Shown here: piece by piece, positions 48,507 through 63,820 of the stretch
How the letters are laid out: each line of letters begins with the position of its first letter
Numbering within the stretch: the first letter of the stretch is position 1
From: Halopiger goleimassiliensis
GTDB taxonomy: Archaea > Halobacteriota > Halobacteria > Halobacteriales > Natrialbaceae
Assembly: GCF_000455345.1 (NCBI RefSeq)
Contig: NZ_HG315690.1
Span: 881,742 to 945,741 of the forward strand
DNA length: 64,000 nt
Direction: 5' to 3'
Translations under genes and position numbers: made by a program
Notes under the pieces: model-generated
What the model was told of the DNA's origin: nothing
Databases searched by the model: none
What the model saw: only the letters and a program-made list of their open reading frames with translations

Positions 48507-48869
48507 ATGTCGACAGGGGTTCTCATCGTGGACGACTCTCATTTTATGCGGAATCTGCTTCGGCAAATCCTAGAGCAGGACTACCGCATCGTCGGAGAGG
48601 CCACTAACGGTGCCGAGGCCGTCAAATTATACAAGGAACACGACCCGGACATCGTCATGATGGACATCGTGATGCCGAAGTGTAACGGCATCAAGGCGAC
48701 CGCGGCGATCAAGAAAATCGACCCGGACGCCCACGTCATCATGTGTACCAGCGTCGGTCAGCGTGAGAAGATGAAACTCGCCGTCAAGGCCGGTGCGGAC
48801 GGCTACGTGACGAAGCCGTTCGAAGAACCGAACGTCAAGAAAGCCCTCACGGACGTCGCCGCGGCATGA
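48507..48869 (+). CDS. cheY: CheY chemotaxis response regulator
   Basis: 120 aa single receiver domain. The acidic pocket D9-D10, phosphoacceptor D53 (VMMDIVMP), T81 (MCTSV) and K103 (TKPF) are all present, so it should be phosphorylated by CheA and act on the archaellum motor through CheF. The ATGA overlap with cheB at 48866 couples the two genes. Heads the main che operon. Confidence 0.95.
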   Translation: MSTGVLIVDDSHFMRNLLRQILEQDYRIVGEATNGAEAVKLYKEHDPDIVMMDIVMPKCNGIKATAAIKKIDPDAHVIMCTSVGQREKMKLAVKAGADGYVTKPFEEPNVKKALTDVAAA

Positions 48870-50050
48870 CGACCGTACTCGTTGTCGAGGACTCGCACGC
48901 GGTGCGATCACTCGTCGACGACGCGCTCGAGACGGCAGGCTACGACGTCGTTACGGTCGATCCCGAGGCGGGCCTCGTCGAGGCCGTCTCCCAGGTCGAC
49001 CCCGACGTCGTGATCGTCGACCTCGAGACGTATCCGTCCGATGGGGCAGCGGTGCTCGAACGGCTCATGTCCCGAAACCCGACTCCGACGCTCGTACTCG
49101 CGTCGCCCGACGCCGATCCGGCCGCGTTGGACGCCTTCGCGTACGGTGCCGTCACGGTCGTCCGAACGCCCAGCGACAACGACCGGGCGTCGGTCGCGGC
49201 GTTCGTCGACGACGTTCGCACGGCGGTCGAGGACCTCGACGCCGTCGACGTATCGGCGCTGGCGGTCGCACAGACGACGGCGACCGCCAGATCGATCCGA
49301 ACGGCGTCGGCAGTGGAGACGACTGCCGGCTCGTCCGGCGACGCCGTGAGTGCCGAATCCGCCGTCGCCGGCGTCGAAACCGGAACGGTGCGGCCGACGA
49401 CCGCAGGGGAACCGACGACGGTCGAATCGACGGACGAGCCGATCACGGTCGAGAGAACCCCGTCCGAGCCGCCCACGATCGTCGTCGGGGCGTCGACCGG
49501 CGGCCCGAGCGTCGTGGAAGGGTTGCTCGAGCGGCTGCCGACCGCGCTGTCGGCGCGCGTGTTCGTCGTCCAGCACATGCCCGCGGCGTTTACTCCGCGG
49601 TTCGCCGATCGCCTCGACGCGAGAAGCGAGTACCGTGTGCGCGAAGCCCGAGACGGCGACCCGGTGACCCCTGGAACCGCCGTCGTCGCCCCTGGAGACG
49701 ACCACCTCGGGGTGACCGTCGACGACGACGGCCTCTACGTCCGCCTCGAGGACGGCGATCCGGACCACGGCGTCCGACCGTCGATCGACCACACGATGAG
49801 ACGGGTCGCCGAGCGGTGTCCCGGCCCGCTCTGTGGCGTCGTCCTCTCCGGCATGGGCCGGGACGGTGCCGCGGGCATCGAAGCGATCGACGACGCGGGC
49901 GGACACACGATCGCCCAAGACGAAGCGACCAGTTCGGTCTTCGGTATCCCGTTCCGGGCGATCCGGACCGGCTGCGTCGACGAAATCGTCCCCGCGAGCG
50001 CCCTGGCCGACAGGATTACCGCCGCGATGGCGGGTGAGAACGATGAGTGA
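48866..50050 (+). CDS. cheB: CheB receptor methylesterase/deamidase
   Basis: 394 aa. N-terminal receiver domain with D9 and phosphoacceptor D52 (IVDLE); the conserved Lys is replaced by R100 (VVRTPS). Then a Thr/Ala-rich linker of about 85 residues, longer than in bacteria, and the methylesterase domain with the catalytic triad S210 (GASTGGPS), H237 (VQHMPAAF) and D333 (SGMGRDG). It removes methyl groups from, or deamidates, transducer glutamates. Its stop overlaps the cheA start. Confidence 0.95.
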   Translation: MTTVLVVEDSHAVRSLVDDALETAGYDVVTVDPEAGLVEAVSQVDPDVVIVDLETYPSDGAAVLERLMSRNPTPTLVLASPDADPAALDAFAYGAVTVVRTPSDNDRASVAAFVDDVRTAVEDLDAVDVSALAVAQTTATARSIRTASAVETTAGSSGDAVSAESAVAGVETGTVRPTTAGEPTTVESTDEPITVERTPSEPPTIVVGASTGGPSVVEGLLERLPTALSARVFVVQHMPAAFTPRFADRLDARSEYRVREARDGDPVTPGTAVVAPGDDHLGVTVDDDGLYVRLEDGDPDHGVRPSIDHTMRRVAERCPGPLCGVVLSGMGRDGAAGIEAIDDAGGHTIAQDEATSSVFGIPFRAIRTGCVDEIVPASALADRITAAMAGENDE

Positions 50051-53000
50051 CGGCTGGACCGACTTCGTCGCCGAGACCGAAGAGCGGATCACCGAACTCA
50101 ACAACGAACTGCTCGCGCTCGAGCGCGAGCCCAACGACGAGGAGGCGATGCGACGGGTCTTCCGGATCGCCCACACGCTCAAAGGCAACTGCGGGGCCGC
50201 CGGCTTCGAGGCGGCGAGCGACGTCGCACACGCGATCGAGGACCTCCTCGACGCCGCCCGGGCCGGTCGCCTCGAGTTGACGTCCGACGTGATGGACGTC
50301 GTCTTCGACGCCGTCGACGAACTCGAGACGATGGTCCGGGAGGTCGAGACCGGTGGCGAGATCGAAACCGATCCGACGGAGACGATCCAGCACGTTCGGG
50401 ACGTTCTCGAGCGCGAGACTCGTGCCGGGGCGACGTCGGTCGAGCGACCGACGCCGCAGGAGATCGATCGGGTCCTGTCGTCGGTGTCGCCGCCTGACGA
50501 CGGCAGCCACCGGGGGTTCCTCGTTCGGTTCGCGGTCGTCGAAGAAGACGCCGGCGACCCCTCGAACGGGAGCCTGGTCGTCGACGCCCTGATCGACGCG
50601 TTCGACCTCCTCGGGACCGATCCCGGTCAGAACGCGATCGCCGAAGGGACCTACGGCGGCCGGTTCGACGCCGTCTTCGCCGGCTCGGTCGACGAAACGT
50701 CGATCGCGGCCGCGCTCACGGACGTCGACGAGATCGCCGACTTCGAGATCGTCGACGTCACCGACCGACTCGAGGACACAGCCGACGACGCGCGAGCGAG
50801 CGCCGACGCCCTCGAGGCGGACGACGCCGAGGAGCTCGAAGTGGACGAACTGCTCGACGAGGTCGACGAGTTCGACGACTTGGACGAGAAGGTCAAGGAG
50901 GTCGAAGACGACGACGACCTCGACGTCTTCGACGAGATGGGCGAGGCCGGTTCGTTCGACGACCTCTTCGAGGAGGCGGACGTCGAACCCGAGGTCGAAC
51001 CCGGCGAACCGGACGACGCCGACGCCGACGAGTCGACGGCCGAAACGGAGGCGGAAGAGGAGGTCGACGACGCCAGCGCGGTCTTCGAGGAACTCAAAGA
51101 TGAGGTCGACCCGGTCGGCTTCGACGAACTCCAGGACGAGCTCGACGAACTCGAGTTCGACGAGTACGGCGAGGAAGAGGTCGGCATGGAGGACCTGCTG
51201 GCCGACGTCGACGAACCACTCGACGACGGGAGCGACGTCGCGGACGGCACCGAAGACGCCCTCGAGTCGGAAGCCGACGAGTCGGTCACAGCAGCGGCCG
51301 AAGACGAGCCGCTCGAGGGCGAGGCGGGCGACGAATCCGTCGACGACGGCGACGCGGTAGCTGTCGGTTCGGCGGTCGAGGAAACAGACAGCCCAGCCGA
51401 CGACGCCGCCGTGGACGCTGAAACGGGTGCCGCTGCCGAAAGCGAAAGCGACGCCCGATCGAAGACGGACGACGCGGCGGCGGTCGACCCAGCGGAGTCG
51501 GACGCCGAAGACGAAACCGACTCCGCCGAGGAGAGCGGAACGGTCGTCGACTGGTCGGAGTCGGCCGACGCGGCCGATGCCGCTCCCGACGCAGCACCGA
51601 CAGCGGACGAGCCGCCGGCCGACCAGACCCCGTCCGACGACGCCTCTGTCGAGGCCGACGCGGCGTCGGCCCCCGAGGGAACCGAAGACGGGCCGACGCC
51701 GGCGGAAGCCGATTCCGACGACTCGGTCGAATCCGACGACGCGACCTCGACGGACGACGCCGACGTGGCTGCAGCGGCGTCCGAGGGCGAGCCAACGGAT
51801 ACCGAAGCCGAGACGGATCGCGACGACGCGTTCACGGAGTCGACCGGCGGCGACCGCTCCCACGAGGACGCGTTCGGCGACGAGAGCGACGGGTTCGCGG
51901 TCGAGGATACGTTCGACGCCGACTCGGTCAGCTTCGAGAGCGACCTCGAGTCAGCCGAGGACGAGTTCGTCGACGCGGAGCCCTCTCCCCTCGACGAGTC
52001 GTCGTTCGATCCGACCGACTACGCGGGCGACGAGACGGTCGACGACGCGTTCGCAGTCGACGACGACGTCGAAGAGGCGTGGGCCGATCCCGGACCTGCC
52101 GACGACTCGTTCGGTGCCGACGCGCCCGAGGAGCCGTTCGACGACGATGACGCCGACTTCGAAACGGAGGACGCCTTCGAGTCCGACACCCTCGAGTCCG
52201 ACGCCGGCGACTCGTTCGAGGACGCCTTCGACGACGGGTCGTTCGACGCCACGGACGACACGCTGTCAGGCGACGCCGACCGCGAGTCGACCGAGGAGAC
52301 CGGCTTCGAGTCGGTCGACGATTCGGGCCTCGAGCCCGCCGACGACGCGGACCTCGGTCAGTCCGGTGTAGAATCGACCGACCTCGAGGCGGGAGCCGAG
52401 ACGGACGACGTCGAAGTGGACGAGTCCGAACCGGTCGACGCGGACGTCGCTGGCGTGACCGACGCCCTCGACGATACGCTCGACTCGATCGACTTCGATC
52501 CGGACGCCGACGACTCGTTCGAGGACACTTTCGGTGCCGACGCGTTCGACGATCGCGACGAATCCACTGGGTTCGACGACGCCGACGCATCGTCGGCAGC
52601 CGCCGACGAACCGACGACGGTGATCGAGGAACCCGTCCTCGAGATTCCGGACATCACGGTTCCGGAGCCCGAGGACGACGTCGACGAGGAGGAGGACGAG
52701 GCCGACAGCCAGTCGGTGCGCGTCGACCTCCAGCAGGTCGACGAGTTGCTCAACCTCGTCGAGGGGCTGGTCACCACCCGCGTGCGGCTCCGACACGCCG
52801 TCGAGACCGACCTCGACCGCGCGGAACTCGAGGACGAAGTCGACGAACTGGACGAACTCGTCACCGAACTCCAGGGGACCGTGATGGACGTCCGTCTGGT
52901 GCCGCTCGACTCCGTTACGAGTCGGCTCCCGCGGGTCGTCCGCGACGTCGCGCGCGATCAGGGCAAACAGGTCGATCTCGAGCTCTCCGGTACGGACGTC

Positions 53001-53843
53001 GAGATCGACCGGACGATCCTCGATCGACTCCGCGATCCGTTGATCCACCTGATCCGGAACGCGGTCGACCACGGGATCGAAGCACCCGAGGAGCGAGCCG
53101 AAGCCGAGAAACCGGAAACCGGCCAACTCGAGGTACGCGCGACGCGGAACCGCGACCTGGTGACGATTACGGTCTCCGACGACGGCCGCGGGCTCGATCC
53201 CGACGCGTTGCGGTCCGAGGCCGTCGACGCGGACGTCCTCAGCGAGGACGAGGCGGCCGCGTTGAGCGACGAAGAGGCCGTCGATCTGGTCTTCCACTCC
53301 GGCCTCTCGACCGCCGACGAGGTGACCGACGTCAGCGGCCGCGGCGTCGGGATGGACGTCGTCCAGCGCACCGTCGAAGCGCTCGACGGCTCGATTTCGA
53401 TCGACAGCGAGGTCGGCGAGGGAACGACCGTGACGCTGACGGTGCCGGTCTCGATCGCTATCGACGACGTGCTGTTCCTCGAGAGCGGCGGCCGGGAGTT
53501 CGGCGTCCCGACGGACGCGGTCCAGGACGTCGAACCCGCGGAGCGGATCGAGACCGTCGACGGCGAACCCGTTCTACAGGTCGGCGGGGAGTCCTGCCCC
53601 GTCATCGACCTCGGGGACGCCCTCGAGACGGCGGACACGGTCGTAGACGGCGACGAGAGCATGGTCGTTCGGATTCGCGACGACGTCAGGCCGGTCGCGC
53701 TGCGCTGTGATCGCGTCCGCGGCCAGCAGGAGGTCGTCGTCAAACCGTACGAAGGGTTCATGGCCGACATCCCCGGGCTGAGCGGAGCGACCGTTCGCGG
53801 CCGTGGGGAAGTCGTAAACATTCTCGACGTAACAACACTATGA
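50043..53843 (+). CDS. cheA: CheA histidine kinase with very long acidic linker
   Basis: 1266 aa, roughly twice the usual 650-700. Domains in order: HPt (1-110) with the phosphorylated H44 in RIAHTLKGNC; a P2-like regulator-docking domain (about 138-240, RGFLVRFAVVEEDAG); an Asp/Glu/Ser/Ala linker of about 640 residues (about 245-888) with regularly spaced Phe; dimerisation helices (from QSVRVDLQQVDELLNLVEG, about 889-955); HATPase (about 960-1125) with N-box LIRNAVDHG and G-box DDGRGLD and GRGVGMDV; CheW-like end (1130-1266). All kinase motifs are intact. ATG 50043 overlaps cheB by 8 nt. The linker is the oddity. Confidence 0.95.
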   Translation: MSDGWTDFVAETEERITELNNELLALEREPNDEEAMRRVFRIAHTLKGNCGAAGFEAASDVAHAIEDLLDAARAGRLELTSDVMDVVFDAVDELETMVREVETGGEIETDPTETIQHVRDVLERETRAGATSVERPTPQEIDRVLSSVSPPDDGSHRGFLVRFAVVEEDAGDPSNGSLVVDALIDAFDLLGTDPGQNAIAEGTYGGRFDAVFAGSVDETSIAAALTDVDEIADFEIVDVTDRLEDTADDARASADALEADDAEELEVDELLDEVDEFDDLDEKVKEVEDDDDLDVFDEMGEAGSFDDLFEEADVEPEVEPGEPDDADADESTAETEAEEEVDDASAVFEELKDEVDPVGFDELQDELDELEFDEYGEEEVGMEDLLADVDEPLDDGSDVADGTEDALESEADESVTAAAEDEPLEGEAGDESVDDGDAVAVGSAVEETDSPADDAAVDAETGAAAESESDARSKTDDAAAVDPAESDAEDETDSAEESGTVVDWSESADAADAAPDAAPTADEPPADQTPSDDASVEADAASAPEGTEDGPTPAEADSDDSVESDDATSTDDADVAAAASEGEPTDTEAETDRDDAFTESTGGDRSHEDAFGDESDGFAVEDTFDADSVSFESDLESAEDEFVDAEPSPLDESSFDPTDYAGDETVDDAFAVDDDVEEAWADPGPADDSFGADAPEEPFDDDDADFETEDAFESDTLESDAGDSFEDAFDDGSFDATDDTLSGDADRESTEETGFESVDDSGLEPADDADLGQSGVESTDLEAGAETDDVEVDESEPVDADVAGVTDALDDTLDSIDFDPDADDSFEDTFGADAFDDRDESTGFDDADASSAAADEPTTVIEEPVLEIPDITVPEPEDDVDEEEDEADSQSVRVDLQQVDELLNLVEGLVTTRVRLRHAVETDLDRAELEDEVDELDELVTELQGTVMDVRLVPLDSVTSRLPRVVRDVARDQGKQVDLELSGTDVEIDRTILDRLRDPLIHLIRNAVDHGIEAPEERAEAEKPETGQLEVRATRNRDLVTITVSDDGRGLDPDALRSEAVDADVLSEDEAAALSDEEAVDLVFHSGLSTADEVTDVSGRGVGMDVVQRTVEALDGSISIDSEVGEGTTVTLTVPVSIAIDDVLFLESGGREFGVPTDAVQDVEPAERIETVDGEPVLQVGGESCPVIDLGDALETADTVVDGDESMVVRIRDDVRPVALRCDRVRGQQEVVVKPYEGFMADIPGLSGATVRGRGEVVNILDVTTL

Positions 53844-53875
53844 ACGAACACATCCACCTACGGAGGAACAGATGA
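53840..53875 (+). CDS. 11-codon coupling frame between cheA and cheC
   Basis: A short frame encoding 11 residues starts with an ATG whose ATGA overlaps the cheA stop. It ends with a TGA that overlaps the ATG of cheC (ATGA at 53872-53875). It spans exactly the 28-nt gap and contains the cheC ribosome site GGAGG. Ribosomes finishing CheA could pass through it to CheC. The peptide is probably not functional; the frame may be chance. Confidence 0.3.
   Translation: MNEHIHLRRNR
53862..53866 (+). promoter_or_regulatory. Shine-Dalgarno site of cheC
   Basis: GGAGG lies 5 nt before the ATG at 53872. Together with the overlapping mini-frame it fixes the cheC start. Confidence 0.5.
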
Positions 53876-54477
53876 CGCTGATGGTCGACATTCGGAAGCT
53901 GAGTTTCATCAACGAAATGGCGAAGGTCGGGACGAACGGCGTCGCCGACAACATGAGCAAGCTCACCGGCGAGGACGCCCAGATGGAGGTGACGAAGACC
54001 AACTTCGTCGACGTCGACGACATCCAGGGCCAACTCGAGCCGGGCAAGCGCGTGGGCGTCCGCGTGCGACTGTTGGATCCACCCCACGGGCACATCCTCG
54101 TGTTGTTCCCGGAAGCCAGCGCGAAGAAGATCACGGCGATCATGCTCAACGACGTCGTCGACGACATGTCGAACGTCTCGGGCAAGATGGCCAGAAGCGC
54201 CGTCGAGGAGATGGGGAACATGATGGCCAGCGGGTTCATCGACGGTTGGGCCGACGTGCTCGGCCGGGTCATCGACGTCGCAGCGCCACAGCTCGTCTAC
54301 GCCTCCGGAGAGGACATCGTCACGCGGACTGCCGGCCTCGGCGACGACGATCTGGCGCTGTTTTTCGACTCGGACCTCACCGTCCCGAGTTACCAGATCG
54401 AAGCCGAGATCTACGCGTTCCCGGACCTGGAGGAGTTCGTCGAAATGGTCAACGCCATCGACGTCCAGAGCGCATGA
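53872..54477 (+). CDS. cheC: CheC-type CheY-P phosphatase
   Basis: 201 aa, one CheC unit with its two pseudo-repeats. CheC proteins dephosphorylate CheY-P using Glu and Asn on each long helix. Here the second helix has the intact E113-x-x-N116 (VEEMGNMMASG), while the first has E15-x-x-K18 (INEMAKVGTNG), so only one site should work. It is followed at a 4-nt overlap by a tandem CheC gene. Confidence 0.88.
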   Translation: MTLMVDIRKLSFINEMAKVGTNGVADNMSKLTGEDAQMEVTKTNFVDVDDIQGQLEPGKRVGVRVRLLDPPHGHILVLFPEASAKKITAIMLNDVVDDMSNVSGKMARSAVEEMGNMMASGFIDGWADVLGRVIDVAAPQLVYASGEDIVTRTAGLGDDDLALFFDSDLTVPSYQIEAEIYAFPDLEEFVEMVNAIDVQSA

Positions 54478-55730
54478 AACTCGACGTGAACGTCCTCGGA
54501 ACGTTCTACCGCATGGCCCGCGAGGGAACCGGCCTCGCAGCCGGCAGGCTGACCCACATGACCAACGTGGAGACCCGCGTGGGCGTGACGAAGCTGAACT
54601 TCATGCGGGGACGGGACATCCGCCGGGACCTCGCGGAGTCGACCGACACGGTCGGCGTCCGCGTGAGCCTCAGCGGGGCGATCGACGGCCACTCGATGGT
54701 GGTCTTCGACCGCGAGGACGCCGCCCAGATCGTCGACGAACTGCTCAGCGACGCGTCCATCGACGCCGACGTCGACGAGTTCGATCAGATGTGTCAAAGT
54801 GCCGTTACCGAGGTCGGACAGGTCATGAACAGCGGCTTCATCGACGGCTGGGCCGACGTGCTCGAGGAGATGATCGACGTCTCGACCCCCGAGTTCGTCG
54901 AGGGTGACTCCGCGGCCCCGTTTCTGGACGACCTCGCGGATCCGCCGGCCGACGACGACCTCGCGCTCCTCTTTCAGAGCCGGATCGAAACCGTCGACGC
55001 CGAGATCGAGTTCGATCACTACCTCTTCCCCAAGCGCGAATCGATGGCGCGACTCTTAGAGCGCCTTCGCACCAGTGACGGCATCGAGTACGACAAACTC
55101 GACGGCTTCGATCGGATGGCCGAACGCGGTGCCGAGGAGATCGCCGAAACCGCGACGACGCTGACCGGTATCGATACCAGCGTCGAGATCCGCCGGCTGA
55201 ACTTCGTCTCGCTCGAGGCGATCCCCCAGCAGGTGCCCGACGAACGCCTGGTCGGCGTCGCCTTCGAGTTCGACGGCGTCCCGAGTGGGTTCCTGTTGTT
55301 CCTGTTCGACGAGGAGTCGGCCCACGAGATCGTCGACGCGATGGTCCCCACGTCGGGCGACACGGCCGGGGCCGATGGCTTCGACGAGATGGGCAGAAGT
55401 GCGATCACGGAACTGGGGAACATCATGGCGAGTGGCTTTCTCGACGGCTGGGCGAACGTACTGGATACGACGATCGACCACTCGACGCCGGAGTTCATCC
55501 ACGACATCGGGACGGCGGCCGTCGATCCCGTCGTCGTCCGTCTCGGCGAGAACCAGGAGTACGCGTTCGTCTTCGACACGGTCGTCGTCGCCGACGGACA
55601 GGCCTTCGACTGTGAGGTGTACGCCATCCCCGACGAGGAGGACCTGGAGCGCGCGCTGAACGACCTCGACGTCGATCGGATCGAGGACACCCCCACGACT
55701 GCCGAATTCGGCGAGATCGATCAGCCATGA
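54474..55730 (+). CDS. cheC: Tandem double CheC protein
   Basis: 418 aa made of two CheC units. Unit 1 (residues 1-190) has E113-x-x-Q116 (VTEVGQVMNSG) and a degenerate first helix. Unit 2 (about 200-400) has E313-x-x-N316 (ITELGNIMASG) and also a degenerate first helix. So of four possible phosphatase sites only one is canonical and one carries Gln for Asn. Tandem CheC proteins exist in other haloarchaea, but I do not know their specific role; unit 1 may be a binding or adaptor domain. Overlaps cheD by 4 nt. Confidence 0.85.
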   Translation: MKLDVNVLGTFYRMAREGTGLAAGRLTHMTNVETRVGVTKLNFMRGRDIRRDLAESTDTVGVRVSLSGAIDGHSMVVFDREDAAQIVDELLSDASIDADVDEFDQMCQSAVTEVGQVMNSGFIDGWADVLEEMIDVSTPEFVEGDSAAPFLDDLADPPADDDLALLFQSRIETVDAEIEFDHYLFPKRESMARLLERLRTSDGIEYDKLDGFDRMAERGAEEIAETATTLTGIDTSVEIRRLNFVSLEAIPQQVPDERLVGVAFEFDGVPSGFLLFLFDEESAHEIVDAMVPTSGDTAGADGFDEMGRSAITELGNIMASGFLDGWANVLDTTIDHSTPEFIHDIGTAAVDPVVVRLGENQEYAFVFDTVVVADGQAFDCEVYAIPDEEDLERALNDLDVDRIEDTPTTAEFGEIDQP

Positions 55731-56245
55731 AGACCTACGGGAGCGAACCCGGCGCACCGTCACCGGTCAAAGTCGGCATCTCGGAACTGGCAGTCAGCGA
55801 CGGCGACGAGACGCTCACGTCCTACGGACTGGGCTCCTGTCTCGCCATCGCGTTACACGATCCAGAGGCCGAGATCGGCGGGCTCGCCCACGCCATGCTT
55901 CCAGACGGCGACGCGGCCGAGAACAGCGACCGCAAACCGGGGAAGTACGCCGACACGGCCATCCGTGCGTTGCTCCGGCGGATGGTCGAACAGGGAGCGA
56001 CCTACACGTCGGTCGAAGCGAAACTCGCCGGTGGCAGCGACATGTTCGAGTTCGAGAGTTTCGGCGACGGCGTCGGTCAGCGAAACGTCGCCGCTGCACG
56101 CGCCGAACTCGAGAAACTCGGGGTTCCGATCGTCGCGGAGGACGTCGGCGGCGACCACGGCCGAACCGTGAAGTTTACACCGGAAACGGGAAAACTCGAG
56201 GTGAAGACTGCCGACGACGAAGCCCACGGAGTGAACATACTGTGA
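55727..56245 (+). CDS. cheD: CheD receptor deamidase
   Basis: 172 aa. The cysteine-hydrolase core has C38 in YGLGSCLAIAL and H55 in GGLAHAMLPD, the catalytic pair of CheD. CheD deamidates glutamines in transducers and pairs with CheC, two of which precede it. The N- and C-termini are slightly extended and acidic. The overlapping stop and start with cheR (GTG at 56242) indicate coupling. Confidence 0.93.
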   Translation: MKTYGSEPGAPSPVKVGISELAVSDGDETLTSYGLGSCLAIALHDPEAEIGGLAHAMLPDGDAAENSDRKPGKYADTAIRALLRRMVEQGATYTSVEAKLAGGSDMFEFESFGDGVGQRNVAAARAELEKLGVPIVAEDVGGDHGRTVKFTPETGKLEVKTADDEAHGVNIL

Positions 56246-57042
56246 CAGACGACGCGTTCGACGACATTCTCAGCTTCGTCGAGGACGAACTTTCGTTCGC
56301 GACGAGCCACTACAACGACAGTTATCTCGACCGACGGATCTCCTCGCGGATTCGCCGGACGGGCAGCGACGATTACGACGAGTACTACGAGTTGCTCCGT
56401 TCGGACCCCGACGAGCAGGAGGCGCTGATCGAATCGATGAGCATCAACGTCACCGGCTTCTTCCGCAATCCGGAAGTCTGGGACGGCATCCGGTCCGTCC
56501 TCCGCGAACTCGAGTCGGAGACGGACGAGATCCGCATCTGGAGCGCCGCCTGCGCCGACGGCCGGGAGCCCTACTCGCTGTCGATGCTCGCCCACGACGA
56601 CGACCGGGTCGACGAATCGAACGTCCGAATCCTCGGGACCGACATCAGCCGCCCGGCCCTCGAGACGGCACGGAAGGGCGTCTACGAGGAGTCCCGAACG
56701 GTCGACATCGCCGAGCAGCTCGAGTTTCTGGACAACCACACCCGTTACGTAGACGTCGACGACCGCACCTACCGAATCGCGGACGACGTGAAACGAACCG
56801 TCTCCTTCGAACGCCACGACCTCATCAACGACGACCCCAAGTCCGGGTTCGACCTCGTGGTCTGTCGCAACCTGTTCATCTACATCGACAACGAGTACAA
56901 GTCGCCGATGCTCGAGGTGCTCTCGGAGTCGCTTCGACCCGGCGGCTACCTCGTCATCGGCAAGGCCGAGACGATCCCGCCGAACCTGAAATCCGCCTTC
57001 GAAGTCCAGGACGCCCGCCTGCGGATCTACCAGCGGGAGTAA
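56242..57042 (+). CDS. cheR: CheR transducer methyltransferase
   Basis: 266 aa SAM-dependent methyltransferase that methylates glutamates of transducers, opposing CheB. N-terminal helical domain (residues 1-75) and a SAM fold with IRIWSAACADGREPYSLSML, LGTDIS, FDLVVCRNLFIYI and GGYLVIGKAE. GTG start at 56242 overlaps the cheD stop. Last gene of the che operon; the next gene has its own promoter. Confidence 0.95.
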   Translation: MTDDAFDDILSFVEDELSFATSHYNDSYLDRRISSRIRRTGSDDYDEYYELLRSDPDEQEALIESMSINVTGFFRNPEVWDGIRSVLRELESETDEIRIWSAACADGREPYSLSMLAHDDDRVDESNVRILGTDISRPALETARKGVYEESRTVDIAEQLEFLDNHTRYVDVDDRTYRIADDVKRTVSFERHDLINDDPKSGFDLVVCRNLFIYIDNEYKSPMLEVLSESLRPGGYLVIGKAETIPPNLKSAFEVQDARLRIYQRE

Positions 57043-57077
57043 CCCCCGACTTCGGTCAGTGACGAGCGACCGACCGT

Positions 57078-57087
57078 TACATATGCA
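57078..57087 (+). promoter_or_regulatory. TATA box of the HsdR-N-like gene
   Basis: The sequence ttacatatgc is centred about 28 nt before the ATG at 57110, exactly the leaderless spacing. This favours 57110 over the ATGs upstream and separates the gene from the che operon. Confidence 0.55.
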
Positions 57088-57109
57088 CCACGGCCGAATA
57101 GCGTCACGA

Positions 57110-58459
57110 ATGACCGGCCAGGAGCTTCGTTCGTTCGTCACGCGAACCCAGTCGTTGCTCGAGTCGGCACCGCCGACGTCCGGCCGTGAAACCCACACCT
57201 GGCTCGTCGATCCGTTCCTCGAGACCCTCGGCTGGGACGTCCACGCCGACGACTGTCGCACGAACGCGGTCGTCGACGAGACCGGACTCGAGTACGTCTT
57301 CTCGGTCGACGCCGTCCCCGCCCTGTTCGTCGCGGTCGAACCCGCCGACGAGTCCCTCCAGGAAGCCCGTGCCGCAGAACTGCTGGAAGCTATGGCCTGG
57401 TCCGGCGTCGACCGGGGGATCTACACCAACGGTCGAGACTACGTCTTCCTCGCGGGGACGACCGACGCCGACCGCCTCGCCTGCCGACTGCCCGCACTCC
57501 CGGAGTACGGCGACTCGATCGAGCACTTCTCCCGGACGGCGATCGAACGCCACCTGGAACGCCACTCCCGCGAGTTCGTCGCCCGCCGATTCGCCCTCGA
57601 GCGGTCGGAACTCGTCGAATCGATCGTCGATCACCTGACGGGGCTCGCCGACGAGAACGAGGTCTACGCCGACGAGTTCCGGGCCGCAGCCGAACGGTTC
57701 CTGGATCGACTGATCGTCAGTTTCGCCGACGAGGACGCCGCCTTCGACGCCGAGAGCGGCGACGTCGCGCTCGCGTTCACCGACCCGACGACCGACCGAT
57801 CGCCGACCGGGGATTCCGACGAGTCGACTGGTGCTGGATCGACCTCGAGAAGTCAAACGATCGACTCGAACCCGAAGCGTCGGGGTACGACCGACCGTTC
57901 CGATCCCGTCGATGCTCGGGAAGCGACCTCGAGCACCCGATCAGACGGCGCGAGCGAAGACGGACGAGTCGCCGACGGAACGAGCAACTCCGAGGGCAGT
58001 ACTCGGTCGAGACCGAACGGGGAGAACGGCGAGAGAGCCAGCGACGCCGCCGAGGAGAGCCACGGGACCGACGATGGTACCGACGACGGCCACGGGGACG
58101 GCGATGCCGAGGGAGACGGCGAGTTCGTCGTCCGCTTTTTCAACGAACGTGGTTCGATCGGTGCGATCGGTCACTCGAGTTCGCGGGCCGCGCTCGCCCA
58201 CGCCGCGGAGTACCTGTTCGAGCGGGGCCTCTCCGGGGTTCGCGTTCCCTGGAGTCCCGACGGCGAACCGACCGTGCTCCACGAGGAACCCGTCCGTGAC
58301 GACGGTACGCCCATGGAACGACCACAGCAACTGTCGAGCGGGTACTACCTCGAGACGGGCGGGAGCGTCGCCGATCACGCGCGTCGCGTCCGGGCGATGG
58401 CCGCCCGTGCGAACCTCCGGGTGATGCTGACGGGGTCCTGGGAATCCGCGACGTCCTGA
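57110..58459 (+). CDS. HsdR N-terminal-like domain protein, motif degraded
   Basis: 449 aa. The N-terminal domain (residues about 1-165) looks like the nuclease-fold N-terminus of type I restriction HsdR or a stand-alone relative: WLVDPFLETLGWDV, then YVFSVDAVPALFVAVEPADESL, then WSGVDRGIYTNGRDYVFL. In active enzymes the second segment ends in E-x-K; here it reads V-E-P, so cleavage is unlikely. Next comes an acidic Ser/Thr/Gly linker (about 215-335) and a C-terminal domain of about 110 residues (GEFVVRFFNERGSIGAIG onwards) that I do not recognise. No helicase domain. It sits between the che operon and the convergent pilus operon. Function unknown. Confidence 0.7.
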   Translation: MTGQELRSFVTRTQSLLESAPPTSGRETHTWLVDPFLETLGWDVHADDCRTNAVVDETGLEYVFSVDAVPALFVAVEPADESLQEARAAELLEAMAWSGVDRGIYTNGRDYVFLAGTTDADRLACRLPALPEYGDSIEHFSRTAIERHLERHSREFVARRFALERSELVESIVDHLTGLADENEVYADEFRAAAERFLDRLIVSFADEDAAFDAESGDVALAFTDPTTDRSPTGDSDESTGAGSTSRSQTIDSNPKRRGTTDRSDPVDAREATSSTRSDGASEDGRVADGTSNSEGSTRSRPNGENGERASDAAEESHGTDDGTDDGHGDGDAEGDGEFVVRFFNERGSIGAIGHSSSRAALAHAAEYLFERGLSGVRVPWSPDGEPTVLHEEPVRDDGTPMERPQQLSSGYYLETGGSVADHARRVRAMAARANLRVMLTGSWESATS

Positions 58460-58499: not shown

Positions 58500-59276
58500 T
58501 CAGAAGTCGACGTCGGCTTCGACGATCGTTATCACCACTCGATCGACGTCCTGACCGTCGGCCCAGCCCTGCTCGTCGAGGTACGTCTCCCACGCCCGTT
58601 CGGCGTGTGGCGAGGAGTCCAGTTCGATCGTGACGTCGTCGACGACGTCGTCGGTGACGACGGTGCGGTTCTCGACCGTCATCTCGAAGCCGACCGACCC
58701 GTCGCTCCGGATGTTCCCTTCCTGACCGTCGATGGCAACCAGCGAAACGATCGCCGTATTATCGCTCGCCGACAGGAGCGGCTGCTCGAGCACGAAACTG
58801 GTGTCGCCGTCGGGCGTTTCGGTCGCGCGAACGACCGCGCCGCCGTCGTAGGCGATCCAGGTCCCGTCGTACTCGTAGTGGAACTCGCCAATATCGACGG
58901 TGTCGTCCCCGAGGTGATCGAACTCGTCGTATCGGTCGACGATCGGTGTCCCGTCGACCGAGACGTTCAACTCGGTGCCGTTCGAACCGATCGTCACTTT
59001 CCCTGCTCGCATCGCGAGTTCGCCTTCCCGTTCCTCGAGGCCGTCGTACCGCGCGAGGTCGTTGAAGTTCTCCGCGAGGGCGTCCATCGCCCGTTCGGCG
59101 TTCTGGAGTTGTTCGTGATCGTGGTACTCCTCCATCGCGTCGAAGGCGGTCACCGAGAGAATCGCAACGGAGCCGAGGATGATCGTGAACGCGAGGATGA
59201 ACCCGATCACTTCCGAGGCCCCGCGTTCGGCGTCCGAGTCGTCAGTTCCGCCGTCAGCGTGTGTCGTTCGGTGCAT
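58500..59276 (-). CDS. Prepilin-like protein (DUF7289 type)
   Basis: 258 aa. A type IV prepilin-like signal RG-AS precedes EVIGFILAFTIILGSVAIL, with cleavage expected after the Gly near residue 19. The remaining part is a beta-rich extracellular head with an acidic surface. DUF number from memory. Last of five such genes in the pilus operon, so likely a minor pilin or tip protein. Confidence 0.78.
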   Translation of the reverse strand: MHRTTHADGGTDDSDAERGASEVIGFILAFTIILGSVAILSVTAFDAMEEYHDHEQLQNAERAMDALAENFNDLARYDGLEEREGELAMRAGKVTIGSNGTELNVSVDGTPIVDRYDEFDHLGDDTVDIGEFHYEYDGTWIAYDGGAVVRATETPDGDTSFVLEQPLLSASDNTAIVSLVAIDGQEGNIRSDGSVGFEMTVENRTVVTDDVVDDVTIELDSSPHAERAWETYLDEQGWADGQDVDRVVITIVEADVDF

Positions 59277-59764
59277 CAGTATGCCCTCTCGAGTCGAATT
59301 TCGTCGTCGTCACCGTCGTAGCTGACCTCGATCCCGCCACCCCTGACCGAACTGTCCGTCTCCAGGTCGGCGTCGGTCTCGAGGGGGACGTAGACGGGGG
59401 CGTCGTCCCGGAGCGTGAGTATCACGCAGTCGCTTCCGTCCTCGAGTAACGGCCCGTCACAGTCGTCACCAGTTCCCAACGACACCGTGTACGCCCTGCT
59501 CCCGATCCGCCGCGGATGATCGGTCGTCACGTTGACCTGGCCGTCGTCCCCGGCCATCCGATCGACGCTCTGGATCTCACCCGCGAGTCGTTCGCCGATC
59601 GTCTCGAGGGACTGGTCGGTCGATCGCTCCGTCTCCCGCTCGAGCATCCCGCCGGCACTGAGCAACAGCCCCGAAATGAGGATCGTCGTAATCCCGATCG
59701 TCAGGGCGTGCGTGACTGTAATCGATACCGCGCGTTCGTCTCGAGGTCCGGGGCGTCGGTTCAT
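59276..59764 (-). CDS. Prepilin-like protein (DUF7266 type)
   Basis: 162 aa. The class III-type signal has RA-VS before ITVTHALTIGITTILISGLLL; cleavage would be after the Ala near residue 12. A coiled segment ERETERSTDQSLETIGERL follows, then a small beta head with two Cys near residues 110-120 that may form a disulfide. One base overlaps the next gene; it belongs to the pilus operon. Confidence 0.78.
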   Translation of the reverse strand: MNRRPGPRDERAVSITVTHALTIGITTILISGLLLSAGGMLERETERSTDQSLETIGERLAGEIQSVDRMAGDDGQVNVTTDHPRRIGSRAYTVSLGTGDDCDGPLLEDGSDCVILTLRDDAPVYVPLETDADLETDSSVRGGGIEVSYDGDDDEIRLERAY

Positions 59765-60615
59765 CGGTTCCCTCCGTAAATCTCGATTTCTCTGTCGGCT
59801 TCCTGGTACGAAACTCGATTCGAATCGTAGGTGACGTCGACGGAGACGGCCCAGATCCCGTCGCCGGAGTTGACGTTGTTCGTATCTTCGGTCGCGACGA
59901 TGTCGTAGCTACCGATGCGGTCGCGGTCGAACCGCACTTCGGTATAGTCCTGCTCCGGATCGATTATCGAGAGATCCGACGACGTACAGTCCGTCTGCGC
60001 ATCGACCGCACCCGATACCAGATCGAAGACGGCTTCCTCGGCCTCGACGGAACAGCGGTCGCCAGCGTCGGTCTCGATCTCGAGGGTGCTTCCGTACGTA
60101 TCGATCGTCACCGTCTCTCCCAGTCCGGTCCCGATCTGGATTTCGCCGTCGTCACTTCCCTCGATCTCGAAGGAGAAGTGGCCGATGTAGGCCCTGTTGT
60201 GGAAGTTTATCCTGTCTTGGTCGGCCGGATCGATATCCGACAGGACGGTGCCCGCCGTTCTGACGACGTCGACGTCCGAGACGTCCGTAACCGCGGACCG
60301 ACCGTTCGCGGTCGTCGTCCTGTACAGGTCGTTGAACCCGTCGCCGTTCTCGATCGCGTCCGCGAGGGCGTTCTCGTCTCCCCCTTCGTGAACGTTCACG
60401 CCGTGGCCCAGTTGCGCGACCCCCTTCTCGAGTTCGACCTCGGCCAGTTCGGCGTGAGAGGCCCCCTGACTGGTCGAACTCGAGGAGATGGTTTCGGTGT
60501 AGAGGACGCCGTTGAAGACGACGACGATCCCGAGGATGATGAACGCGAGCGCGACTGCGCCGACGAGGATCACCTGGCCGCGGCTTCGGTGGTCGGAATT
60601 CGATCGGGTTACCAT
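59761..60615 (-). CDS. Prepilin-like protein (DUF7261 type)
   Basis: 284 aa. Signal RG-QV directly precedes ILVGAVALAFIILGIVVVF (residues about 12-34). The large head (residues about 60-284) is beta-rich and has two Cys in the middle section (DRCSVE and TDCTSS). Overlaps the genes on both sides by a few bases. Probable minor pilin. Confidence 0.78.
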   Translation of the reverse strand: MVTRSNSDHRSRGQVILVGAVALAFIILGIVVVFNGVLYTETISSSSTSQGASHAELAEVELEKGVAQLGHGVNVHEGGDENALADAIENGDGFNDLYRTTTANGRSAVTDVSDVDVVRTAGTVLSDIDPADQDRINFHNRAYIGHFSFEIEGSDDGEIQIGTGLGETVTIDTYGSTLEIETDAGDRCSVEAEEAVFDLVSGAVDAQTDCTSSDLSIIDPEQDYTEVRFDRDRIGSYDIVATEDTNNVNSGDGIWAVSVDVTYDSNRVSYQEADREIEIYGGNR

Positions 60616-61217
60616 ACGATCAGTCGCACCTCCACGACGTTGTAGACGATCTCGCCATCGTTGGCCTGTGGAATTAGCGAGTTGGCGTCAGCTACCTCGT
60701 CGAGCCGATCGTTCCGTTCGGGTTCGACGTACTGGTCGTCGTACAGCGTGACGACGTGGCTCGCGACGACGGCCTCGGACGGCGGGCTCTCGGCCTGCCG
60801 GTGAAGGTCCGTCGACTCGGTCGCCTCCGTCGACGATCCGCTCACGTAGTGTACCTCCACGTTGTAGCTCCGGCCTTCGTCGGCGAAGCTCTGGTTCAAG
60901 ATCGCTCCCAGCGTCGAATGCTCCGCGAACGACTCCTGATCTGTAGGATCGATGTCGGCGAAGCCAGTGCCGGTCGCGTCCCACCGCCGAACGGTTCGGG
61001 ACAGGTCGCCGTCCTGACCGGCGACGACGAGTGCGTCCTGGGCCTCCTGCTGGAGCTGGGCCTGAAGGGTTCGGTCGACCTGTCCGCCCGTCGTCGGCGT
61101 GATAACGACCGCCTGCAGCGCGAACAGCACCGCCATGAGAATGACCATCGCGCCGATGAACCCCTCGAGGGTGTAGGCCTGCCCACGATCGGTCCGCGAT
61201 CGGAGTGTCCCGCTCAT
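60609..61217 (-). CDS. Prepilin-like protein (DUF7288 type)
   Basis: 202 aa. Signal RG-QA precedes YTLEGFIGAMVILMAVLFALQ, with Glu five residues into the mature chain (YTLE), the position that matters for pilin assembly. A helix VDRTLQAQLQQEAQDALVVA and a small head follow. Of the five it is closest to a canonical pilin N-terminus. Confidence 0.8.
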   Translation of the reverse strand: MSGTLRSRTDRGQAYTLEGFIGAMVILMAVLFALQAVVITPTTGGQVDRTLQAQLQQEAQDALVVAGQDGDLSRTVRRWDATGTGFADIDPTDQESFAEHSTLGAILNQSFADEGRSYNVEVHYVSGSSTEATESTDLHRQAESPPSEAVVASHVVTLYDDQYVEPERNDRLDEVADANSLIPQANDGEIVYNVVEVRLIVW

Positions 61218-61221
61218 GGTA

Positions 61222-61758
61222 TCACCACACCCTCACGACGAGTCTGTACGCCGGTTCACCGCCCGGATCGACGTCGCCCTCGAGGGAGACGATCCGTGCG
61301 GCCACCGCGGTCACCTCGCTCCCGTCGTACGATCGGGTACCGGCCGTGAGGTTCTCTCCCCCGGCCGGTGACTCGACCGTCGATCCGTTGAGAGTCTGGA
61401 TCGTCACGTTGACGCGGTCGGTGGTACGAAGGCCGACGAGGTCGGACAGGTGCTGTTCGTCGTCGGCGTACGTCTCCCGGAACGCGGTCACGTTGAGCCG
61501 GTTTGCGGTCCCCTCGGAGAGGTCGTCGACGAGTTCGTCCGCGACCCGGTCCGCTTGGGCGGTCTCCGCGCCGCTGACCGTCGAGTCGAACGGCGTGATA
61601 AGCGACGGGAGAAACAGGAACACAAAGGAGATAGCGAGGATGAAAACGCCGATGCCGATAGCGAAGTCCATGTTCGTCTGTCCGCGACCGTCCGACCGGT
61701 CGAATTCTGTGATCGATCGCCAGCGAACTCCGCCGCGAGTTCGACTCCGACCGTTCAT
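61222..61758 (-). CDS. Prepilin-like protein (DUF7287 type)
   Basis: 178 aa. A basic N-terminal stretch of about 25 residues ends in RG-QT, followed by NMDFAIGIGVFILAISFVFLFL. The head (residues about 60-178) is small and beta-rich. Lies 1 nt after the platform-protein gene, so it is first of the five pilin-like genes to be transcribed. Confidence 0.78.
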   Translation of the reverse strand: MNGRSRTRGGVRWRSITEFDRSDGRGQTNMDFAIGIGVFILAISFVFLFLPSLITPFDSTVSGAETAQADRVADELVDDLSEGTANRLNVTAFRETYADDEQHLSDLVGLRTTDRVNVTIQTLNGSTVESPAGGENLTAGTRSYDGSEVTAVAARIVSLEGDVDPGGEPAYRLVVRVW

Positions 61759-61759
61759 G

Positions 61760-63820
61760 TTAGGCCACCAGCGCCCAGCCGCCGAGCGCGATCGTCGACA
61801 GCACGACGACGTACTTGAGCCCGCTCAGGATGTCCGCGTCCCTGATGTACCCACAGATCAGCCCCGAGAGGATCGCCTGCAGCGTGACCGCGTGGAAGAA
61901 CAGCGTCGACAGCATGTCGACGTTGATGTTCTCGGTCAGGTCGGCGTTACCCAACCCGGCACCGGCCGCGCTCGCATCGACGTCCGTGTCGCCGGTCTCG
62001 AGGCCGGCCATGGTCTCGATGAACTGCGTCTGGAGGATCGCGATCACAGCGAGCACCGTCAGGAACGTCATGATGATGATCACGACCTGCATCCGGGTCC
62101 GGGACTTGCGCTCGCGCTCGATGTCGTCGTGGTTCTCGCTGGCCTGTGCGGCGGTCCGCAAGACGTCGGAGATCTGATTCGACGCCTCCTGGGCCTCGCT
62201 GATCAGCCGCGTCGTCCGGGCCATCCGCGGGATGTGATACTTGTTGTTGAACTCGATGAGCGCCTGCTTCAGGCTGGTCCCGTAGTTGACCTTCGTGTGC
62301 ATAATCTCGAACTCGCGGGCCAGCGTCCCGCTCGTGGTCTCGGCGACGGCCTGGAACGACTCGAGCAGCGTCATCCCGGTCTCGTTCGCGCTCGAGAGCT
62401 TCCGGAGGTCCTCCGAGAGCTGGCTGACGACGGCGTTTCTGTGGCGGACGTTCCACTCCCGGAAGATCGCGAGCGGTACCGCGACGATGTACAGCGGGGC
62501 GTAGACGTATATGAACGTCCCCCAGATGGGGTTGTCTATCATCGCCGACCAGGACGTCGGCGCGGAGCCACGGACCATCGCCGTCGCGACGATGACCAGC
62601 GAGATCGGGACCGTCAGTGCGAGGGTATAGAGCGGGTTATCCCGGAAGAAGATGTGGGGCTGGCGCAGCACTTCGATCGTCTCGTGGGTTCCCTCGCGGT
62701 TCTTGATGCGATCGAAGATGCTGTGCTCGCCGGTGAACTGTTCGACGAGCCCGAGGTCCAACACGCCACTCTCTTTCCCATGCTGGATCCCGTCGTTTCC
62801 CCGTTCGAGTTGCAGGTAGCCGTCCCCCGGTTCGTCGTGTTTGACCGTCGAGACCAGGATCAGAAACCCGATCCCCAGGAGCGGGATGAGCGCGTAGACC
62901 GTCATGTAGAGCATCTGGTCGGTGACGGTCGCGTCGGGGATCATCTGCATGACGACCATGATGATAATCAACAGGAGCGGGAACAGCGAGAGCGTCATGT
63001 ACATCTCGCCGAACAGCTCGAGGGTGTCCAGGGTGAGCTCCTGTTCCTGTTTGGCGGTCCGCATGTGCAGTTCCTTCTTGTCCTCGAGGAAGCTCTCCAT
63101 GTCACCGCCGCTGTTGATGATCGAGAGCATGTCCGTCAGGAACTGCGAGAGCTCGTCGCTCGGCGTCTCGAGCGCCTGTTTGCGGATCGCCGTCCGGTAG
63201 TCGACGTCGAAGTACTCGGTCTCCTTGACGATGCTCTGGAACTCTTTGGAGACCTCGCCGTAGGTGTCGTCGGCCTGGGCCATCGCGTCGATGATCTCGA
63301 GCTGGTTGAGCCCACCGACCGACAGCGCGTACATGAACGAAACGGAGTCGGAGAGCAGCATGTTGATCTCGCGTTTCCGAGCCGACGCACGCGAGTAGGG
63401 GATCGCTACCAGCGAGCCGAAGCCGATGGCGAAACCGATCCCGCCGAAAACGACGCCGATGACGAGTACCAGCGCCGGGACCCGGATCATCTCGAGAATC
63501 TGGAGGACCGTCTCGTTGCTAACCGGGACCCCGATGAGGTGATCGATCTGGATGAATCCGGTCCCGAACAGGGCATAGCCAAGCAGGATCCCGAGCAGCC
63601 ACAACACGAGTCCGCTGATGAATCCGACGCCGAGCGCCCGAGAGAGGTAGAGTTCGACCGTATCGGTCATCCGGGCTTGCGCGAGCTTGGTTTCGACGTC
63701 GTTGACGAACTCGCTGTCCTCGCTGAACAGCCGATCGTACAGCGGGTAAAACAGCTGGCTAACGGAGTCCGAGCCGGTCGCGATGCCACTCGCTGGCGTA
63801 TCGTCGGTCTTGAGACTCAT
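61760..63820 (-). CDS. pilC: Type IV pilus platform protein, PilC/TadC (T2SSF) type
   Basis: 686 aa with two type II secretion F-like halves, each a cytoplasmic helical bundle followed by membrane helices. Half 1 has NMLLSDSVSFMYALSVGGLN and half 2 has VVSQLSEDLRKLSSANETGMTL. Nine or so membrane helices in total. It forms the inner-membrane base on which the secretion ATPase acts to assemble pili. The ATG overlaps the ATPase stop (ATGA), as usual for archaeal pilB-pilC pairs. Confidence 0.92.
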   Translation of the reverse strand: MSLKTDDTPASGIATGSDSVSQLFYPLYDRLFSEDSEFVNDVETKLAQARMTDTVELYLSRALGVGFISGLVLWLLGILLGYALFGTGFIQIDHLIGVPVSNETVLQILEMIRVPALVLVIGVVFGGIGFAIGFGSLVAIPYSRASARKREINMLLSDSVSFMYALSVGGLNQLEIIDAMAQADDTYGEVSKEFQSIVKETEYFDVDYRTAIRKQALETPSDELSQFLTDMLSIINSGGDMESFLEDKKELHMRTAKQEQELTLDTLELFGEMYMTLSLFPLLLIIIMVVMQMIPDATVTDQMLYMTVYALIPLLGIGFLILVSTVKHDEPGDGYLQLERGNDGIQHGKESGVLDLGLVEQFTGEHSIFDRIKNREGTHETIEVLRQPHIFFRDNPLYTLALTVPISLVIVATAMVRGSAPTSWSAMIDNPIWGTFIYVYAPLYIVAVPLAIFREWNVRHRNAVVSQLSEDLRKLSSANETGMTLLESFQAVAETTSGTLAREFEIMHTKVNYGTSLKQALIEFNNKYHIPRMARTTRLISEAQEASNQISDVLRTAAQASENHDDIERERKSRTRMQVVIIIMTFLTVLAVIAILQTQFIETMAGLETGDTDVDASAAGAGLGNADLTENINVDMLSTLFFHAVTLQAILSGLICGYIRDADILSGLKYVVVLSTIALGGWALVA

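Follow-up and report, generated by a model that had tools for sequence, protein, structure and literature searches.

A predicted nuclease-dead HsdR_N-like protein with a SeqA-like domain between chemotaxis and pilus-like genes in Natrialbaceae

Why would a haloarchaeon keep a protein resembling the nuclease domain of a restriction enzyme between its chemotaxis genes and a pilus-like operon? The question is raised by one gene in a 64,000-nucleotide stretch of Halopiger goleimassiliensis DNA (contig NZ_HG315690.1, positions 881,742 to 945,741; here the window, numbered from its first letter). An earlier note, made from the sequence alone, had described the product as HsdR-N-like without its nuclease lysine and had proposed a repurposed DNA- or nucleotide-binding role. 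Below, L### labels denote loci or proteins and G### labels denote genomes of the analysis.

The gene and its neighbourhood

The gene lies among the following features:
48507..56245, plus strand: the che run without cheR, namely a cheY-like gene (from 48507), cheB, cheA, two cheC-type genes and cheD (CheD by Pfam, the others by reading the sequence)
56242..57042, plus strand: cheR, directly upstream of the focal gene (Pfam CheR, 6e-47)
57077..57100, plus strand: promoter-like element TTACAT-N12-CGAATA, -33 to -10 from the ATG (conserved box in upstream regions)
57110..58459, plus strand: focal coding sequence, a putatively nuclease-dead HsdR_N-like and SeqA-like protein of 449 residues (open reading frame and translation, homologs in family genomes)
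58500..63820, minus strand: convergent pilus-like operon with DUF7289, DUF7266, DUF7261, DUF7288, DUF7287 and T2SSF (PilC/ArlJ-like), all by Pfam

The focal reading frame begins with an ATG at 57110, 67 bases past cheR, which is the last gene of the che run. A longer form starting at a GTG at 57059 is possible. The tblastn alignments of most relatives start at the residue coded by the ATG, and the promoter-like box falls between the two candidate starts. The gene is single copy in its own 3.9 Mb genome. Matches were obtained in 116 of 125 family genomes; those in G020, G086, G088, G090, G091 and G092 were rejected as intact nucleases, which leaves 110 genomes, one of them (G054) with a disrupted copy. 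The late match in G116 looks, by eye, to be unrelated. With homologs in 110 of 125 genomes, this is no chance reading frame. A scan of named genomes with a single protein returned no relatives, its seed peptides falling in part within variable regions, and the same scan with a profile returned 49 loci. Collapsing identical proteins gave an alignment of 61 rows, the Natrialbaceae set.

A TTAC[AG]T box starting between -42 and -24 is found in 41 of the 61 upstream regions (31 of them at -32), against 0.4 in shuffles. It is followed by a CGAATA-like block, most commonly at a spacing of 10 among relatives and at 12 in the window. For archaeal promoters, such a box-to-ATG spacing fits a leaderless transcript, so the leaderless promoter that the earlier note had assigned to the gene is consistent with these upstream sequences. 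The exact window arrangement (spacing 12) occurs once in the genome, at the gene's own site, with two more sites at one mismatch; no regulon is therefore seen. With a spacing of 11, there are 44 sites with up to two mismatches genome-wide against 25 for the reversed pattern, and the spacing 10 pattern has no match within the window. A limited search found no promoter motif common to the focal gene and the che/pil genes.

The earlier note had placed the gene between two motility loci. This holds on the che side; the other side is pilus-like by Pfam only, with NCBIfam matches to ArlJ and UpsF far below their cut-offs. By eye, cheA (50043-53843) has a very long insertion, rich in Asp and Glu, that separates its first domain from the kinase core. 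Among the neighbours read, from about 48.5 to 63.8 kb, there is no methylase, specificity or helicase gene. The protein itself, at 449 residues, has no helicase match. Judged by these neighbours, this locus encodes no restriction system, as the earlier note had argued. A type I restriction-modification system combines an HsdR helicase with HsdM and HsdS, which neither the focal protein nor its neighbours supply.

Linkage to che and pil genes, on which the earlier note had staked its reading, is conserved. Among 46 named family loci, 42 have cheR upstream in the same orientation (within 350 bp in 36, at 2.0-4.3 kb in six). It was missed at L111 and L113, which have less than 4 kb of upstream sequence, and at L107 and L116, which have 10 kb. 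The pilin-like DUF7289 gene lies downstream and convergent in 41 of the 46, its near end within 450 bp; the misses are L110, L113 and L117 at contig edges, L090 with 1.7 kb of flank and L116 with 10 kb. Of 40 loci drawn from the 116 matching genomes, a sample that overlaps with this one, 34 have cheR upstream and 37 have the pilus operon downstream. In L066, L067 and L071 the gene stands beside the pilus operon with cheR at least 27 kb away in the same genome; the contig of L068 is too short to place cheR. L034 and L152 have a methyl-accepting transducer gene on the other strand between cheR and the focal homolog, and L038 has such a gene too, with no cheR nearby.

Outside the family, cheR is upstream in six of the 12 fetched loci with a dead nuclease (L151-L156), where the window's pilus operon was not found; the other six have no che genes nearby. 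Loci that carry the C-terminal domain and no dead nuclease have che genes in 0 of 26 cases. Pilin-like proteins adjoin L161 and L162: both tested L161 proteins are DUF7289, and those of L162 were judged by eye. As a side observation, two genes downstream of the divergent homologs L032, L038 and L152 there are large proteins that begin with DUF7289 and contain a von Willebrand A domain. The gene in between is glutathione transferase-like (tested in L152).

Co-occurrence was scored in the 125 family genomes at E 0.001 for the focal gene, after reclassification, and E 1e-20 for cheR. Both are present in 109 genomes, cheR only in six, the focal gene only in one, and neither in nine (Fisher P 3e-9, uncorrected for descent). 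The cheR-only genomes are G017-G021 and G115, five of the six from one genus, and the focal-only genome, G124, is 53% complete. Six of the nine genomes with neither come from one genus, of which three other species have both. The association with DUF7288 is weaker (107/12/3/3 in the same order, P 0.02), and DUF7288 is kept in seven of the nine genomes without cheR and the focal gene. After the DUF7288 counts, a reading in which presence follows just the pilus operon was given up. Part of the co-loss with che could come from one deletion of adjacent genes, a reading weakened by L066, L067 and L071, where the gene is far from cheR. In G054 (L205), the focal gene beside cheR is broken into several frames, DUF7288 was not found and cheR stays, possibly a joint decay of the focal gene and the pilus operon.

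A predicted PD-(D/E)XK fold and its catalytic residues

The protein divides into three parts, all on the plus strand:
57110..57730: N-domain, residues 1-207, predicted PD-(D/E)XK fold of HsdR_N type, with D-E-K changed to E61-A75-E77 (AlphaFold, VIA, paralog alignment)
57731..58108: acidic, poorly conserved linker, residues 208-333 (alignment of 61 proteins, charge)
58109..58450: C-domain, residues 334-447, predicted SeqA-like fold (AlphaFold, VIA, profile bridge)

This order, an HsdR_N-like N-domain, a variable acidic linker and a C-domain, agrees with the earlier note and is backed by conservation and by two AlphaFold models. The model of residues 1-222 has a mean pLDDT of 87 from 48 aligned sequences. 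Its best structural matches are the HsdR fragment 3h1t (VIA Z 12.1, rmsd 3.4, 118 aligned) and DrdV 7lvv (Z 12.1, rmsd 3.4, 133 aligned), so that the predicted fold is like that of the HsdR N-terminal nuclease domain (Pfam HSDR_N and HSDR_N_2) over about 118-133 residues. Below these come mitoribosomal chains (Z 9.4 or less) and then other restriction enzymes, e.g. BpuSI 3s1s (Z 8.6). PDB sequence searches gave nothing significant, with 3h1t at E 0.76 for the N-domain profile, and Pfam, NCBIfam and PADLOC gave no convincing match to the window protein. Pfam HSDR_N_2 appears at E up to 1 in three of 40 relatives. In some divergent members, it reaches E 8e-5 to 1e-3 (19.2-23.1 bits, below the cut-off of 25), and it is there that the likeness to HsdR extends to sequence. 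The focal protein differs from HsdR in having lost D-E-K, in lacking a helicase, methylase or specificity partner and in having no Pfam match of its own.

Alignment with intact paralogs puts E61 at the position of the catalytic Asp, A75 at that of the Glu and E77 at that of the Lys; all three catalytic positions are altered in the window protein. Four proteins were trimmed at an inner Met before this alignment to drop N-terminal extensions. The earlier note was right that the nuclease lysine is absent, since none of 76 dead-branch proteins has Lys at the third position. Its reading of E-x-K as V-E-P was off by one: the strand is A75-V76-E77, with Glu changed to Ala and Lys to Glu. Across the Natrialbaceae set, the triad is E-A-E in 43 of 61 proteins and E-A-D in eight. 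A further 15 dead relatives, of which 12 come from outside the family and three from its edge (L168 and L174, without a nuclease domain, are omitted from the count), keep the Asp in 12 cases, have E, D, Q, A or R at the Glu position and have no Lys. At the third position, 14 of the 15 have V, C, L, A, S or G.

These states support a window protein that is nuclease-dead by sequence. It is set apart thereby from type IV (methyl-dependent) restriction enzymes, which require intact catalytic residues. We give very little credence to continued nuclease activity that uses E61 and E77 or other displaced residues. It would draw on the retained E61 and on the E or D at the Lys position in most of the Natrialbaceae set (51 of 61 being E-A-E or E-A-D), but the canonical Glu is Ala, and the third position in the other dead relatives has the look of relaxed constraint. 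An intact nuclease with displaced catalytic residues, which the earlier note had named as evidence against itself, is not evident in these alignments.

The sister paralogs tell where the branch came from. They have D-E-K in 26 of 26 rows, corresponding to 25 distinct proteins because L183 and L209 are the same gene. A tree was built from 69 rows (28 of the 61 in the Natrialbaceae set, picked to cover genera, plus 15 other dead and 26 intact) with the three catalytic columns removed. One branch, with support 100/100, splits intact from dead proteins, and the Lys state needs one change on this tree. The intact nuclease is presumably the older state. In three plasmid records the intact paralogs are annotated as 'type I restriction enzyme HsdR N-terminal domain-containing protein'. 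They are 354-413 residues long and share the two-domain order, their C-domain being picked up by the focal profile, and they differ from the focal branch in keeping D-E-K and in lying at loci without che genes. Searches of the window's own genome turned up no intact paralog; other genomes, e.g. G107, G011 and G102, hold both forms.

Two further observations concern relatives of these nucleases. Among the six loci read whose C-domain carriers are not dead, two (L171 and L175) seem by eye to have a site-specific recombinase nearby. The bacterial stand-alone HsdR_N proteins L118-L120 have D-E-K by eye and a parallel two-domain layout, with RAMA as the tail of L119 and a weak DUF5655 match in L118 and L120.

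The linker and the C-terminal domain

The linker has almost no consensus across the 61 proteins, and residues 216-333 carry a net charge of -15. The C-domain is the best conserved part, with a mean column identity of 66% (40 sequences) against 43% for the N-domain set. The earlier note had called it an unrecognised domain of 110 residues; it spans about 114, and its relationship can now be proposed. The AlphaFold model has a pLDDT of 92. Foldseek by itself produced no confident match: its best E was 0.62, and SeqA stood at rank 23. On VIA realignment of 700 Foldseek candidates, four SeqA entries took ranks 1-4: 1lrr and 3fmt (Z 7.6, rmsd 3.2, 99 residues), 3sk7 (Z 7.4, rmsd 2.9, 94) and 1iu3 (Z 7.1, rmsd 3.2, 98). 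The next chain has Z 4.3 over 51 residues.

Because a Z below 8 can reflect a common arrangement, a sequence link to SeqA was sought. Pfam SeqA scores above its cut-off in three of 246 genomes of the phylum, and PF03925 has no match at E 10 in the window's genome. The proteins behind those three matches are the haloarchaeal L192-L194; tested as proteins, they score 27.4, 24.5 and 24.0 bits against a cut-off of 25.5. With hhalign, the C-domain profile of the intact paralogs aligned with four haloarchaeal SeqA proteins plus Escherichia coli SeqA over 83 columns (P 1.3e-4). The score, 31.1, was not reached by any of 300 column shuffles (maximum 22.1), and the reversed control gave 12.9. With the four haloarchaeal proteins only, P was 0.0018; with E. 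coli SeqA alone, the alignment was not significant, eight of 200 shuffles scoring as high. When the profile included the focal branch, the alignment covered just 29 columns (P 0.0007). The predicted structure and this sequence bridge suggest that the C-domain probably shares the fold of the SeqA C-terminal domain (PF03925), at Z 7.1-7.6 over 94-99 residues. It differs from SeqA in having no direct Pfam match, in its changed Asn150/Asn152 positions and in following an HsdR_N-like N-terminus.

Those asparagines belong to what we take to be the methyl-adenine-reading loop of SeqA. The fourth position of the facing loop is Asn in 19 of 26 intact rows, nine of which read T-S-L-N, and in two of 61 rows of the Natrialbaceae set and none of the 15 other dead relatives. 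In the window protein this loop reads T-G-G-S; 54 of the 61 have T-x-G, and none of the 61 has Asn at the second position. Judged by these residues, methyl-adenine reading by the dead-branch C-domain is doubtful. The net charge of the C-domain is -4 in the window, with means of -10.1 in the dead branch and -7.7 in the intact paralogs; halophile proteins are acidic in general.

The C-domain is not confined to HsdR_N proteins. Its profile matches 102 of 293 genomes of the order, and stretches were fetched from 29 of the 44 genomes outside the family that have a match. It is found on the TIR protein L174:8292-9401 (Pfam TIR_2, 2.9e-23) and on L168:9029-10258, which is phosphoesterase-like by eye and has no Pfam match. 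The haloarchaeal proteins L193 and L194 join a weak, below-cut-off T5orf172 (GIY-YIG type) match at the N-terminus to a SeqA-type domain; like the focal protein they pair a nuclease-type with a SeqA-type domain, and they differ from it in nuclease fold. The C-domain thus looks like a reusable recognition module of nuclease- or defence-type effectors.

Possible roles at the che–pilus locus

A dead nuclease, non-restriction neighbours, a conserved promoter-like box and conserved che/pil linkage together argue for repurposing, as the earlier note had supposed. Of its two options, DNA binding is favoured over nucleotide binding because the C-domain is SeqA-like. Our preferred reading, held tentatively and at somewhat less than an even chance, is a domesticated, non-cutting DNA-binding protein that regulates the taxis/pilus locus. 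On this account its ancestor was a haloarchaeal stand-alone nuclease that joined an HsdR_N-type PD-(D/E)XK domain to a SeqA-like C-terminus. Every member seen of one branch lacks the catalytic Lys, with Glu and Asp changed to differing degrees; any order of decay read from these states is presumptive. In Natrialbaceae and some relatives, the gene has come to be almost always part of the che–(transducer)–pilus locus. There, the SeqA-like domain would contact DNA, the dead nuclease fold would provide oligomerisation or an extra DNA contact, and both domains together would tune expression at the locus. We infer this DNA binding, oligomerisation and regulation, and with them the target genes. Several results weigh against the reading: the net negative charge of the C-domain, the scarcity of the loop Asn in the dead branch, the SeqA matches at Z below 8 and the non-significant alignment with E. 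coli SeqA alone, the six genomes that have cheR and no focal gene, the six dead loci outside the family away from che genes, and the lack of a common promoter motif in the limited search.

The protein might instead be an accessory chemotaxis signalling protein that acts through protein–protein contacts, with its two folds, both of DNA-related origin, now serving as scaffolds. A precedent is set by CheF (DUF439) and other archaea-specific Che proteins. They too were once-unknown genes tied to archaeal che regions, and CheF proved to act in chemotaxis signalling by protein contacts (PMC2666748, in part), although it has no Pfam relation to the focal protein. The presence pattern, which follows cheR better than DUF7288, speaks for such a role, as do the three loci in which the gene sits beside the pilus operon with cheR at least 27 kb off. 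A strongly conserved domain of predicted DNA-binding type speaks against it, as do the lack of a match to known Che families in Pfam and NCBIfam and the six dead relatives outside the family without che genes nearby. We consider signalling rather unlikely. A role confined to the convergent pilus operon, as its cytoplasmic factor or its local regulator, with the che link a mere matter of neighbourhood, seems to us distinctly unlikely. Such a role would account for the 41 of 46 named loci in which the near end of DUF7289 is no more than 450 bp downstream, for relatives elsewhere near DUF7289-type proteins (L032, L038, L152, L161) and for G054, where the gene is disrupted, DUF7288 was not found and cheR is retained. 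Yet seven of nine genomes without cheR and the focal gene retain DUF7288, and ten loci (L032, L033, L169, L170 and L151-L156) have cheR upstream without the pilus operon.

Continued service in defence, for example as a non-cutting decoy, inhibitor or partner of intact paralogs, has only a small probability in our view. Descent from a nuclease family, the C-domain on the TIR protein L174 and the genomes that hold both forms would suit it; the near-fixed che–pil location, the lack of an intact paralog among the searches of the window's genome and the lack of a PADLOC match do not. There is also a broader form of the DNA-binding reading. SeqA-type domains may be a haloarchaeal sensor module mounted on several effectors (HsdR_N nuclease, GIY-YIG type, TIR and phosphoesterase-like). 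One such nuclease would have been domesticated into a non-cutting DNA reader that couples chemotaxis and the expression of pili to the state of the chromosome (its methylation, replication or invasion). This is a long shot; if true, it would mean epigenetic or cell-cycle control of motility in archaea.

By title and abstract start, the open-access literature held nothing on the focal protein at che loci and nothing on SeqA-type domains in haloarchaeal nucleases, and no paper was found there on SeqA-type readers of GATC/CTAG marks in archaea. Sources bearing on the setting, each in part, include work on archaeal pili by Makarova et al. 2016 (PMC4858521), on PilB3-C3 in Haloferax by Legerme and Pohlschroder 2019 (PMC6491452), and on winged-helix nucleases as 6mA readers, with mention of RAMA fusions (PMC11037411). 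The locus points to SeqA-like domains in archaea, and GATC and CTAG orphan methylases are reported in haloarchaea (PMC6471742, in part). It documents well how a nuclease of restriction type can be disarmed and yet retained among core behavioural genes; intact sisters, and relatives in which the nuclease is partly decayed, are at hand for comparison. Among possible missing regulators or accessory proteins of haloarchaeal taxis and pili, the gene product is a concrete candidate.
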